A stretch of 26,231 bases of DNA from a virus. Below the pieces are notes generated by a model. That model did no database searches. It was given only the letters and a program-made list of their open reading frames with translations, and had not been told where the DNA came from. Location of the stretch: IMG/VR virus record IMGVR_UViG_3300008258_000019, positions 1-26,231 of that record; one strand, 5' to 3'. Of the stretch, positions 4,496 through 17,795 are shown piece after piece (within the stretch, counting starts at the first letter, position 1; every line of letters begins with the position of its first letter). Both the position numbers and the translations under genes were made by a program.

Positions 4496-4634
4496 AGTCA
4501 GGTGGCGAAAATTCAGTTGGCTCGGACCCAGCTGACGGCAGACGCTATGAGAAGAACACAGCCTATCCCGATTTGCGTGGAACACAGGTCAATACTAAAG
4601 TGCGTTCATACAGGTTCGAATCCTGTCCTGACTA
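4496..4634 (+). tRNA. Oversized tRNA-like RNA (A), isotype unassigned
   Basis: A perfect 7-bp acceptor stem AGTCAGG/CCTGACT (8 bp counting T4495-A4634) and a canonical T arm ACAGG-TTCGAAT-CCTGT (4610-4626) are present, but they are 107 nt apart instead of about 40-55. After TG comes a D stem GCG (4505-4507)/CGC (4543-4545) whose loop holds GGCAGA preceded by an inserted 7-bp hairpin CAGTTGG/CCAGCTG with 7-nt loop CTCGGAC (4514-4534). About 64 nt then separate the D arm from the T arm, and I could not place a normal anticodon arm. Options are a tRNA with insertions or an intron, a tRNA-like decoy, or a tRNA remnant. Confidence 0.6.
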
Positions 4635-6923: not shown

Positions 6924-7151
6924 ATGTTTTGGACAATATATGTAATAAGTGTTATTTATTGCTTTTATCAATTAGTAAAACGCTACATGGCAACTGACTT
7001 AAGAGGTGGTGGGTTAGATTCAGCCCCAGGATTAGATGCAGTTATGGTTCTTTTCATAGCACCATTTTTAGCTGTAGTTGACATTACTTTAACTTGGATA
7101 AAACTTTATAAAGAAGCTGAAGAGGCAAGACGAAGAAACAATACACTGTAG
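6924..7151 (+). CDS. Small membrane protein (75 aa)
   Basis: The 75-residue protein begins with a hydrophobic segment (FWTIYVISVIYCFYQLV, about 2-18) and has a second one in the middle (about 38-58, AVMVLFIAPFLAVVDI). Between them is a short glycine-containing loop, and the end is basic (EEARRRNNTL). It is probably a two-pass inner-membrane protein. Its TAG stop lies inside the 5' acceptor strand of the tRNA-like RNA at 7147, so RNA processing may affect the 3' end of its message. The function is unknown. Confidence 0.7.
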   Translation: MFWTIYVISVIYCFYQLVKRYMATDLRGGGLDSAPGLDAVMVLFIAPFLAVVDITLTWIKLYKEAEEARRRNNTL

Positions 7152-7305
7152 GGTGGCGGAATAGAGGTAGCTCCTCGTGGCAGACGTGCCCTCTCGTCTA
7201 GGGGGTGCTGATTAGAGACAGATGTAAGATATGGGTTGACCACAAAGCCGGTTTAGTTGTCTTACATTGAATCGCAGCGTGCTGGTTCAACCCCAGCCCC
7301 TACAG
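7147..7305 (+). tRNA. Oversized tRNA-like RNA (B), isotype unassigned
   Basis: The acceptor TGTAGGG/CCCTACA (7147-7153/7298-7304) and T arm GCTGG-TTCAACC-CCAGC (7281-7297) are perfect, but the RNA is 159 nt long. The D stem GCG (7156-7158)/CGT (7185-7187) encloses GGCAGA preceded by an extra hairpin GAGG-TAGCT-CCTC (7164-7176), at the same place as in RNA A. An anticodon-like stem CCCTC/GGGGG has loop TCGTCTA (7194-7200) but lacks U at position 33. A long arm follows, with ATGTAAG (7222-7228) pairing CTTACAT (7261-7267) and GCTG (7207) pairing CAGC (7275). It resembles a Leu/Ser-type tRNA with two insertions. Decoding ability is doubtful. Confidence 0.62.
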
Positions 7306-7310
7306 CAAAT

Positions 7311-7396
7311 GCCTTGGTGGTGAAATAGGTAGACACGCAGGACTTAAAATCCTGTTCGCAGCAATGCGAGTGCGAGTTCGATTCTCGCCTGAGGCA
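7311..7396 (+). tRNA. tRNA-Leu (anticodon TAA)
   Basis: A class II tRNA: acceptor GCCTTGG/CTGAGGC with G-U pairs, D stem GTG/CAC, anticodon stem CAGGA/TCCTG with loop CTTAAAA, variable arm TTCGCAGCAATGCGAGT, and T arm GCGAG-TTCGATT-CTCGC. The anticodon TAA reads TTA, a codon very frequent in this AT-rich DNA. The discriminator is A and CCA is not encoded. Confidence 0.95.
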
Positions 7397-7411
7397 CAAA
7401 TAATTATATAC

Positions 7412-7744
7412 ATGGCATGTCACTGCTTATACTTAAAAAATTCAGATGAATTCTACTCACTATTAAAGAGTAGAGATTCAGATATGATCATGAAGATGGT
7501 CAAATGTGTACTTAGTGCAGCTAAACGAAATAAAAAAACCATCGATATATTTGATATCACGTTCAAAAATACAGATGGCTTGATTTTTACTATTGATAAA
7601 TCGCAGTATACCGAATTATTGAGTAACTGCCTAAATGATTTAATCGCACTTGAAGAATACGAATTGTGCGCTGAGATTAAGAAATTTATCGATAAGAAAT
7701 CAAAAAGCAAAAAATCTGGGGATGTCCAGGTATTTGATCAGTAA
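7412..7744 (+). CDS. Small protein, paralog of the 2339-2641 product
   Basis: An ATG at 7364 in the same frame falls inside tRNA-Leu, so I use the ATG at 7412, giving 110 residues. Residues around KKTIDIFDITFKNTDGLIF, followed by a C-terminal ALEEYELCAEIKKFI helix, align with the protein at 2339-2641 (KKTSISLFEV, then EREEYNRCAECRD). The UVR-like end suggests a protein-protein contact role. The tail is basic and Ser/Lys-rich. A CHC near the N-terminus (residues 3-5) is not enough to call a zinc site. It sits alone between tRNA-Leu and the tmRNA, with only 3 nt between its stop and the tmRNA 5' end. Confidence 0.72.
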   Translation: MACHCLYLKNSDEFYSLLKSRDSDMIMKMVKCVLSAAKRNKKTIDIFDITFKNTDGLIFTIDKSQYTELLSNCLNDLIALEEYELCAEIKKFIDKKSKSKKSGDVQVFDQ

Positions 7745-7747
7745 TTC

Positions 7748-8084
7748 GGAGGTAATACCACACGCGGACAAAGTAAGATAAGTCCTTAAAACCTTGCGAA
7801 ACAATAACTGTAGAATTATCTACTATGACCTTCGACGACATGATGTCTTTCGTAGGTGCGAACGAGTACGCTTTAGCGGCTTAATTAGCGTCGGGTGTAA
7901 CATCCTAGGAACAGAAGTTACAAGCAGTTTACCCAAACGTTAAATGGGTTGGTGGAACGCTATACTAACCATATGGCCCCAATTCTTTTGGAACAGTAGT
8001 AAGATTAAACTGTTAAACTAAGCGTGTGAGACGTTGGTATTATTGTTCATTATTGAGACACGAGTTCGACTCTCGTCATCTCCA
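7748..8084 (+). ncRNA. ssrA: Transfer-messenger RNA (tmRNA)
   Basis: The tag frame GGT GCG AAC GAG TAC GCT TTA GCG GCT TAA (7855-7884) encodes GANEYALAA plus stop, close to Bacteroidetes tags of the GENNYALAA type. The tRNA-like domain is formed by GGAGGT at 7748 pairing with the ATCTCC before A8084, and by the T arm ACGAG-TTCGACT-CTCGT (8060-8076). Helix H2 is supported by AACAATAA (7800-7807) pairing with TTATTGTT (8040-8047). AACTAAGCGTGTGAGAC upstream of the 3' end resembles the conserved ACTAAGCATGTAG of bacterial tmRNA. Length is 337 nt, a normal size. It would free stalled ribosomes with SmpB and tag products for proteolysis. No smpB gene is visible, so host SmpB is presumably used. 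CCA is not encoded. Confidence 0.92.
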
Positions 8085-8090
8085 CAACTT

Positions 8091-15502: not shown

Positions 15503-16330
15503 ATGAAAAGTTTATTATTCTTATTAGTATTTATTCCAACAGTATTGTTATCACAAGTTAGCACTTGGAGAGGTGCTACATCAACACCTAGAGTATCAAC
15601 ACAATCATTTCAACAATCATCTCCACAACGAAATGTTAGTAGCTGGAGAAACGAATCACCAAGAGAATTTAATAGACCTGCAAGAACAAGATCAGGCTCA
15701 AATATTATTGTTAATGATCCTTGGTTAGGTAATAACTGGGGTTGGGGATGGAATAGATGGGATATGTGGGGAGCTCCAATGTTTGGTTGGAACTACTGGT
15801 CTCCAATGTGGTATATGAATGATTGGGGTTACAGACAACCTGCTAGAATCTATGTATATGATAATGGTAAAAGAGATACTATTAAAGGTAAAAAACCAAT
15901 TATCAGCTTTGGTATTCAGGGAACAACAGACGATCAAGTGGGTGGTTTCTTTACAATAGGAAATAAAGGATACTTTATAGTAGAATATACAGCAAGTAAT
16001 CTAAGAGATAACTCAACATTCTTTCCTTTTGGAAATATAGCTCAAGTTGATTTTCCAATGGTAAACGACTTAGTTCAAAGACAGAGCTTTTATGTTGGTG
16101 TAGGTAAGCGAATTAAAAGAACAGGTATTCATATGATGATTGGAACTGTAAGTGAAGACGCTAAATGGAGAGGTAAAGATGATTTAGGCTACATAACATT
16201 TCCTAAGTACTTAGATAGATTTACAACAGTAAAAATAGGTGCACTACACGACTATAAAAATTTTACAATAAAGTTTGATTATGACCCAATAATCAATAAT
16301 AGAACTTTTGGATTGGGTGTTAATTTCTAA
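15503..16330 (+). CDS. Exported Trp-rich, outer-membrane-like protein
   Basis: The 275-residue protein has a signal peptide (MKSLLFLLVFIPTVLLSQ), a Ser/Gln/Arg-rich linker (about 19-70), and a striking Trp/Gly/Asn-rich segment (NNWGWGWNRWDMWG and on to about 113). From about 130 the sequence alternates hydrophobic and polar residues and ends in GLGVNF, with a terminal Phe as in many outer-membrane beta-barrels. It probably sits in or on the outer membrane. The Trp-rich part could bind glycans or span the membrane interface. No family is recognised. The next gene starts 1 nt after its stop. Confidence 0.72.
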   Translation: MKSLLFLLVFIPTVLLSQVSTWRGATSTPRVSTQSFQQSSPQRNVSSWRNESPREFNRPARTRSGSNIIVNDPWLGNNWGWGWNRWDMWGAPMFGWNYWSPMWYMNDWGYRQPARIYVYDNGKRDTIKGKKPIISFGIQGTTDDQVGGFFTIGNKGYFIVEYTASNLRDNSTFFPFGNIAQVDFPMVNDLVQRQSFYVGVGKRIKRTGIHMMIGTVSEDAKWRGKDDLGYITFPKYLDRFTTVKIGALHDYKNFTIKFDYDPIINNRTFGLGVNF

Positions 16331-16331
16331 A

Positions 16332-17795
16332 ATGAAAAAATGGTTAGTAAGTATATTATTAATCGTTATATGTTTATTCGCTAAGATAGCGAACGGACAA
16401 GTTTACACTCAAACATTCATTGACAAATGCACTGGTCAAACCAAAGTAGCTACAACTACAATGGTCAACGGAAACGCTATCGTTTCATTCTATGGTCAAA
16501 TTAAGACATTTACTCCAGCGCAGGTAACAAATGGAGAATTACAAGCTTGGCTTCAAGCAACGTATGTATCCTACAACTCACTAGCATGTCCAGTATCAAC
16601 TCCCGTAGTAACACAGACAGTGACTCAGGCAGTGTCGCAGGCAGCATCACAAGCAGCATCATCAGCAGCAAGCTCAGCAGCGTCATCAGCCGCTTCATCA
16701 GCAGCCTCAAGTGCAGCAAGTGGTGCAGCTTCAGGAGCAGCAAGTGGAGCCGCTTCAGGAGCAGCAAGCGGAGCAGCATCAAGTGGAGCAGCAGCTTCAA
16801 GTGGATCTTCAGCCTCAAGCGGTACAGCAGCATCCTCGAGTGGATCTTCATCCCAATCATCATCGGGTTCGTCCTCGTCTTCATCTTCTGGTTCGTCATC
16901 CTCATCTGGGGAGTCATCATCATCAAGTTCATCTGGAAGCAAAAGCGAAAGCAAATCAGAAACAAAAACAGAATCAAAGAGTGAATCTAAATCTGAAAGC
17001 AAATCTGAAAGCAAATCTGAAGAGAAAAAAGAAGAAACTAAATCAGAAACTAAAGAGGAAAAGAAAGAGGAGAAGAAGGAAGAATCTAAAGAGGAAAAAA
17101 AGGAAGAGAAAAAAGAAGATAAGAAGGACGATAAGAAACAAGCTAAAATGAACCCCATAATGATAGGTTCAGATTTAACTGTAGCTCAAAATCCTGCAGG
17201 TGGATTTACACCAATCATATCATTAAGTATGTCTCAAGCATCAGCTACAGGCGAATCAAGTTGGGGTGTATCAAGTATGGTATGGGCTGATTTAAAATCA
17301 TTCGCTTTATCTGCAAATAAAAGCGATATGAACTTTAAGAACGGAGTACTCAAATCAATAGATGCTTACTCATATACCGTTGCTTACGTCGCAGGTACGC
17401 ATATGACTTTTGGTGGTTATACTCACATTATACCACATCCAAAACATGGTACGTTTGGCTATAACTTATCTGTTATTAATATTAAATTGAAAGAAGCTGT
17501 TGGTTATTCATATTCATTTATGTCGTCAACTACAGCATTCTGGACTAAACCATATCAAATAAGTAGAAAATCAACATTATCTCCAGGTGTATTCTTAATG
17601 GCGTCACCATATGCTTACAACAGCAAAGCAGGCAGCACATGGAACTATAATGTAATGGGTTTGGTGGGCACAGGATATAGTTTTAAATTGAGTAAACGAT
17701 TTGGATTTAACATTGATTATAAAGCAAGCTTATCAACAGTACCGGGTACACCCATACTTAGCTTCTTCCTTGTAGGTTCAAGATTACAACTATAA
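16332..17795 (+). CDS. Exported low-complexity protein with barrel-like C-terminus
   Basis: I choose the ATG at 16332, 1 nt after the previous stop, as it begins a signal peptide (MKKWLVSILLIVICLFAKIANG). The mature 465 residues comprise a small domain with Cys33 and Cys86 (about 23-90), an Ala/Ser-rich tract (about 100-170), a Gly/Ser tract (to about 203), a Lys/Ser/Glu tract (to about 270), and a C-terminal beta-rich domain (about 271-487) ending VGSRLQL that looks like a small outer-membrane barrel. The long disordered middle could reach from the membrane across the periplasm or outward as a stalk. The tracts vary readily in length by repeat slippage. Confidence 0.78.
   Translation: MKKWLVSILLIVICLFAKIANGQVYTQTFIDKCTGQTKVATTTMVNGNAIVSFYGQIKTFTPAQVTNGELQAWLQATYVSYNSLACPVSTPVVTQTVTQAVSQAASQAASSAASSAASSAASSAASSAASGAASGAASGAASGAASGAASSGAAASSGSSASSGTAASSSGSSSQSSSGSSSSSSSGSSSSSGESSSSSSSGSKSESKSETKTESKSESKSESKSESKSEEKKEETKSETKEEKKEEKKEESKEEKKEEKKEDKKDDKKQAKMNPIMIGSDLTVAQNPAGGFTPIISLSMSQASATGESSWGVSSMVWADLKSFALSANKSDMNFKNGVLKSIDAYSYTVAYVAGTHMTFGGYTHIIPHPKHGTFGYNLSVINIKLKEAVGYSYSFMSSTTAFWTKPYQISRKSTLSPGVFLMASPYAYNSKAGSTWNYNVMGLVGTGYSFKLSKRFGFNIDYKASLSTVPGTPILSFFLVGSRLQL
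16620..17145 (+). repeat. Low-complexity coding repeats (Ala/Ser, Gly/Ser, Lys/Glu)
   Basis: This coding tract is built from short, imperfect in-frame repeats: first SAAS/GAAS units, then GSSSS units, then KSES/KSET and KKEE units. The DNA units are degenerate (agcagcaagtgga and similar), so it is an old, drifting repeat rather than a perfect tandem array. Confidence 0.85.

Follow-up and report, generated by a model that had tools for sequence, protein, structure and literature searches.

A conserved family of tRNA-like phage RNAs with palindromic arm tips and predicted self-association

Results

The window analysed here is a 26,231-nt stretch of viral DNA (IMG/VR record IMGVR_UViG_3300008258_000019) that carries two tRNA-like RNAs on its plus strand, RNA A (4496–4634) and RNA B (7147–7305). 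RNA B is followed on the same strand by tRNA-Leu(UAA) (7311–7397), which starts 5 nt downstream and has a similar D arm, by the gene of a 110-aa protein (7412–7744) that lacks a Pfam or PHROG match and is conserved near RNA B in 54 loci, and by a phage tmRNA (7718–8085) detected with ARAGORN and Rfam. The end of the protein gene overlaps the start of the tmRNA by ~27 nt. The tmRNA has a long tag frame (window 7825–7884, MTFDDMMSFVGANEYALAA), and ARAGORN tags in relatives span 23–26 aa, for example DEMSTMTFDDLMAFVGADYALAA, with long tags in L084, L091, L111 and other loci. Elsewhere in the window, positions 16308–17795 hold a 495-aa frame that includes extended low-complexity segments of Ala/Ser and of Lys/Glu/Ser. 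ARAGORN calls neither a tRNA nor a tmRNA at RNA B, the tmRNA of the window being that at 7718–8085, and RNA B is also uncalled by the Rfam tRNA model RF00005; an ARAGORN or RF00005 tRNA call is likewise absent for the relatives of RNA B at L169, L084 and L161.

RNA B is laid out as an oversized class II tRNA, and each element that a sequence-only reading of the window had described was found in its place. The 7-bp acceptor stem (TGTAGGG/CCCTACA, 7147–7153/7298–7304) has the 5′ strand UGUAGGG, in which U1-A72 is invariant and G2-C71 nearly so across relatives, and C74, the first genomic base of the 3′ tail, lies at 7306. After TG (7154–7155), GCG (7156–7158) opens a D arm (7156–7187) with stem GCG/CGU and a tRNA-Leu-like loop in which GGCAGACG occupies 7179–7186 and G18-G19 occupy 7179–7180. 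A hairpin insert in this loop, GAGG-UAGCU-CCUC (7164–7176), holds a self-complementary AGCU and stands directly before G18-G19, the same point at which RNA A carries a D-loop hairpin, as the sequence-only reading had stated. The anticodon arm CCCUC-UCGUCUA-GGGGG (7189–7205) has the loop TCGTCTA (7194–7200) with GUC at 7196–7198, C33, U37 and A38. The variable arm of ~74 nt (7206–7279) runs from a ~5-bp outer helix (7206–7210/7275–7279) through a purine-rich bulge and a ~11-bp inner helix (GATGTAAGATA/TGTCTTACATT, 7221–7231/7258–7268), both helices showing compensatory changes, to an unpaired GGGUUGACCACA and a short tip. The conserved unpaired motif reads UGGGUUGACCACA in the window (7232–7244), is also written GGUUGACCACA or GGUUGACC for the family, and includes a GAC (7238–7240) complementary to the anticodon GUC; the tip AAGCCGGUUU (7245–7254) is self-complementary as a G-U form of the family palindrome AAGCCGGCUU. 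The T arm GCUGG-UUCAACC-CCAGC (7281–7297) completes the layout.

Relatives of RNA B were collected from IMG/VR with the neighbouring 110-aa protein, which gave 54 loci of which ~30 keep RNA B at identities down to 68%, and with pattern scans that added further members. The first pattern fixed CTCGTCTMG and GGTTGACCACA, and scans were repeated with either element left free; many members were found by patterns containing parts of the anticodon loop or variable-arm motif, and conservation of these two elements is unbiased only in the protein-anchored set and the element-free scan sets. The resulting family numbers 77 matches with 72 distinct sequences of 142–173 nt, on phage contigs from a few kb up to jumbo-phage size (321 kb). 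True members score 82–174 bits with the RNA B covariance model, and RNA B of the window matches covariance model R1 at 145.6 bits. When 50,697 named phage records were searched by blastn, neither the window region nor any of four family members retrieved an RNA B, and a set of matches from one search proved to be short pieces under tRNA-Leu or unannotated DNA. One exact-motif scan of GTDB genomes gave 7 matches, which we regard as chance because none fits the covariance model, and a 2OG oxygenase used as a protein anchor gave 77 loci with no RNA B by blastn. RNA B has no Rfam match, and no account of a comparable tRNA-like phage RNA turned up in a literature search; the family is so far undescribed.

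Because RNA B alone folds unremarkably (MFE z = −1.23, with 25 of 200 shuffles equally good), lone-sequence folding was dropped as proof of structure and relatives were compared instead. Across an alignment of 41 diverse relatives, 90.9% of helix cells are paired, 31 of 43 base pairs show changes on both sides, and 245 compensatory cells compare with 75.9 in shuffled and 18–48 in slid controls, a signal far above chance by this comparative measure. The family has the three stem lengths of a cloverleaf, 7 bp in the acceptor and 5 bp each in the anticodon and T stems, and all three stems are paired in 100% of cells, with both-side changes in four of the five T-stem pairs. The D-loop hairpin was scored one sequence at a time, since its variable length led MAFFT to align it poorly. 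As judged from covariation, the comparison shows a full class II cloverleaf with acceptor, D, anticodon, long variable and T arms, and we have hardly any doubt that these sequences form a real tRNA-like RNA family. Covariation excludes a decaying tRNA pseudogene. A group I intron within a tRNA is also excluded: only ~80 nt are extra, none is inserted in the anticodon loop, and the additional nucleotides build the D-loop hairpin and variable arm.

The sequence-only reading took the common insertion point of RNA A and RNA B as a sign of shared design and not of chance decay. Conservation and covariation support the part concerning decay, but RNA A and RNA B have different closest relatives. A search for relatives placed RNA A in another family, and it scores 36.7 bits with the RNA B covariance model, where ordinary tRNA-Leu genes score 30–39. 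The family of RNA A comprises 40 distinct sequences with the acceptor AGUCAGG/CCUGACU, mostly A73, a constant T arm CAGGUUCGAAUCCUG, usually a tRNA-Leu D arm, and a hypervariable core that lacks a regular anticodon arm. RNA B, with UGUAGGG/CCCUACA, G73 and a different T stem, falls outside this family; its own family is marked by UGUNNGG/ACA acceptors, G73, the GUC loop and the long structured variable arm. A-type RNAs occur in the window, in L316, L318, L097, L187, L181, L327 and in other loci, at up to 4 copies per phage, with total lengths of 69–181 nt and cores that differ in nearly every phage, and look like tRNA scaffolds with diversifying inserts.

The distribution of the D-loop insertion also speaks against a shared design. 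Most A-type D loops are normal, with an insertion at the RNA B point in the window copy and one copy from L316, and many RNA B relatives lack it as well. Most members of the main RNA B group carry the insert, usually as a palindrome of 8–14 nt, and it is missing in L169, L331 and most of subfamily II, a distant and well-supported group in the tree (L223, L233, L236, L252, L267, L272, L280, L286, L289 and L309). All subfamily II members have U33, and all except L223 have a plain tRNA-Leu D loop that reads AAAUUGGCAGA or close to it. Because subfamily II mostly lacks the insert, the tRNA-Leu-like scaffold is the common core on which inserts were gained or lost. Judged by comparison, the insertion defines neither family. 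The point that RNA A and RNA B have in common looks like a permissive position, used recurrently on the tRNA-Leu-like scaffold of both, and does not signal their common descent. A pairing between the anticodon loop and a D-loop AGAC was ruled out, as AGAC varies (AUAC, AAAC) and the anticodon loop is constant.

Conservation in the RNA B family is strongest at U1-A72, G73, the following genomic C, G18-G19 and the variable-arm GAC, all near-invariant. The anticodon triplet is GUC in 72 of 72 sequences, and G34-U35 persists in 47 of 47 when positions 32–35 are left free in the search, as does the variable-arm GAC in 41 of 41 when its three bases are left free. Position 33 is C in 59 sequences, U in 12 and A in one, and position 37 is U in 70 of 72; 64 sequences have C38 and the remaining eight, the window included, have A38. 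The C33 and U37 of the window depart from the U33 and purine 37 of canonical tRNAs. The earlier statement that the loop lacks U33, and so argues against normal decoding, is accurate for the window but does not extend to the 12 family members with U33. Both C33 and U37 are rare in decoding tRNAs, and their presence makes ordinary decoding by RNA B appear unlikely.

The anticodon triplet and G73 of RNA B match those of tRNA-Asp. Identity elements for E. coli AspRS are G73, G34-U35-C36, C38, G10 and G2-C71, and RNA B carries most of this set, with the window deviating at A38. RNA B could be an unusual class II tRNA-Asp (GUC) that translates, its D hairpin and long variable arm being tolerated. 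Such a tRNA would account for the universal GUC, the frequent C38, the almost invariant G73 and the intact cloverleaf arms, and decoding-type features do appear in places, including U33 in the 12 sequences, a CUGUCUC loop in the distant subfamily and A37 in L264 (CAGUCAC). We nevertheless consider a translating tRNA improbable: C33 and U37 prevail in the family, and decoding needs neither the invariant GGUUGACCACA nor the covarying palindromic tips described below. Moreover, at least ten loci also carry a canonical tRNA-Asp in the same arrays, mostly with CUGUCAC-type loops, so RNA B is not simply the tRNA-Asp of these phages.

A different use of the loop is suggested by the variable-arm motif, as GUC and the GAC of GGUUGACCACA are complementary and both invariant. 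Pairing between them, in cis or with a dimer partner, would keep the anticodon permanently occupied and make RNA B a self-locked scaffold. The only two position-37 variants each gain a Watson–Crick partner, L081 with C37 alongside a GGACC motif and L264 with A37 opposite U. Three invariant pairs give no covariation test, however, and the extra position is U-U in 70 of 72 members; we treat this pairing as possible but rather unlikely.

The arm tips of RNA B are palindromic to an extent absent from ordinary tRNAs of the same contigs. Perfect palindromes of 6–12 nt occur in 41 of the 43 distinct variable-arm tips. Palindromes reach 8 nt or more in 34 of these tips and in 31 of 50 D inserts, compared with 0 of 68 variable arms of Leu, Ser and Tyr tRNAs. 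Eight self-complementary tetramers appear in variable-arm tips (CCGG, UGCA, CGCG, AGCU, UCGA, CAUG, GUAC and GCGC), and seven central tetramers in D inserts. When the inserts are excluded from tree building, the tip changes state ~19 times and the D insert ~38 times, rough counts from a poorly resolved tree with 'none' among the states. Predicted energies of most variable-arm tips as single hairpins are 0 to −2.6 kcal/mol, and those of intermolecular duplexes of palindromes of at least 8 nt are −13 to −20 kcal/mol. Exceptions exist: the tip of L267 is not palindromic, several D inserts including AAUGACGGCAGUCAA, AAGCGUUACGCAU and AUGCCUUUGGUAU are not palindromic either, and the D hairpin is absent altogether from about a dozen members. 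The D insert can therefore not be the sole contact.

Switching palindromes of this kind have been used to recognize RNAs that self-associate. In OLE and GOLLD, palindromic tetranucleotides in kissing loops switch between homologues, for instance from GGCC to GAUC or AGCU, and covarying adjacent loop bases support intermolecular pairing since they cannot pair within the same chain (PMC12286853, 2025). RNA B shows the same covarying self-complementary loops as homo-oligomeric RNAs of the GOLLD/ROOL/OLE type. Because the tips covary as palindromes and form stable predicted duplexes while hardly forming hairpins alone, RNA B copies probably associate with each other.

Two alternatives would leave the palindromes without this function. 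RNA B could act as a monomer that serves as decoy or sponge for a tRNA-targeting defence nuclease, its palindromic tips merely capping hairpins; the exposed anticodon loop is constant where stems change, but no tRNA-Asp nuclease is known to be linked to the hosts of these phages. Caps also need no self-complementarity, unlike the long palindromes of 34 of 43 variable-arm tips against none in the control tRNAs, and most of these hairpins are predicted to be unstable alone. Even with the precedent of phage tRNAs that act against tRNA-cleaving defences (PMC11555353), we judge a monomeric decoy unlikely. Alternatively, the palindromes, which are perfect in DNA too, could work as protein-binding or restriction-like DNA sites. 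They sit exactly at conserved RNA hairpin tips, their sequence switches freely between many forms, and the window tip AAGCCGGUUU pairs with itself only as RNA, through G-U, all of which makes a DNA-level role highly improbable.

RNA B genes are embedded among tRNA genes. A tRNA or tmRNA lies within 300 nt of 44 of the 77 matches and within 12 nt of 25, with gaps between RNA B and tRNA of 3–8 nt that are typical of tRNA arrays, and RNA B often stands 4–6 nt after tRNA-Ser(UGA) or before tRNA-Leu(UAA). N73 is followed by C in RNA B members, as it is in the tRNAs of the window itself. An ordinary-looking tRNA-Asp at L093:3795–3869 has a CUGUCUA loop with U37, as in RNA B. GOLLD RNAs occur on some RNA B-bearing stretches (L169:6171–6574, L164:1621–2038 and L197:3720–4123), in tRNA arrays of large phage contigs.

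Discussion

We favour, with moderate confidence in the whole, a reading of RNA B as a non-coding RNA on a tRNA scaffold that would undergo tRNA-type maturation, self-associate and perhaps act on a factor specific for tRNA-Asp. RNA B would be co-transcribed with tRNAs and matured by the host tRNA machinery through RNase P, 3′ trimming and CCA addition. The variable-arm tip and, for most members, also the D-loop insert would then link two or more copies into a homodimer or larger RNA assembly. The assembled RNA would display tRNA-Asp-like features, the GUC triplet and G73, and engage or titrate a host factor that reads tRNA-Asp during infection, with a defence-system anticodon nuclease or AspRS as candidate targets. 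Engagement of an Asp factor is the most likely role we can name, but we propose it tentatively and give it a low probability, as it leans on E. coli identity elements. A decoy or sink for such a factor fits the conserved GUC loop and G73, and has a precedent in phage tRNAs that counteract defences based on tRNA cleavage (PMC11555353). As phage tRNAs act in this way and RNA B apparently cannot decode yet is conserved, the decoy idea is directly testable. A self-assembled RNA particle, built through the two palindromic tips and presenting many tRNA-Asp-like loops against host translation or tRNA-based immunity, is a further version that we regard as doubtful.

Features of RNA B recall several known RNAs and set it apart from each. 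GOLLD and ROOL are phage non-coding RNAs near tRNA islands that form homo-oligomers through symmetric kissing loops with covarying palindromic tetranucleotides (PMC12286853), but they are several hundred nucleotides long with other folds, whereas RNA B has 142–173 nt, a cloverleaf and an oligomer predicted from sequence. The GOLLD model RF02032 finds GOLLD elsewhere in L169 and L164 but gives no match at RNA B in these two stretches or in the window. Like the class II tRNAs tRNA-Leu and tRNA-Ser, RNA B lies in tRNA arrays and combines an acceptor of 7 bp, a D stem of 3 bp under a Leu-like loop, G18-G19 and a normal T arm with a long variable arm. Unlike them, it has a hairpin in the D loop and palindromic tips, U1-A72 together with G73, and GUC in a loop that has C33 and U37; its variable arm, at ~74 nt, is built from two helices and holds a conserved internal loop. 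The likeness to tRNA-Asp (GUC) lies in the GUC triplet, G73 and mostly C38, but tRNA-Asp is class I without a long variable arm, and most RNA B members have C33 and U37. tmRNA is also a tRNA-like, non-decoding phage RNA of the same neighbourhood, whereas RNA B has an anticodon arm, no message part or tag frame, and another fold. Small viral RNAs or elements that self-associate through loops include phi29 prohead RNA and the HIV-1 DIS (PMC7357161); phi29 uses two different complementary loops and no palindromes, and neither is tRNA-based, unlike RNA B.

If the self-association holds, RNA B would be a small, tRNA-derived addition to the few natural RNAs thought to be homo-oligomeric, and at ~160 nt it would be a far more tractable object than GOLLD or ROOL. 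The RNA B family and the hypervariable A-type RNAs show that whole RNA families escape automatic tRNA annotation in phage tRNA arrays. A short class II tRNA-like RNA at L124:11872–11982 scores 43.5 bits with the RNA B model, has a D-loop hairpin with CGUACG and an odd anticodon loop, GAAACAA, and is perhaps a further relative.
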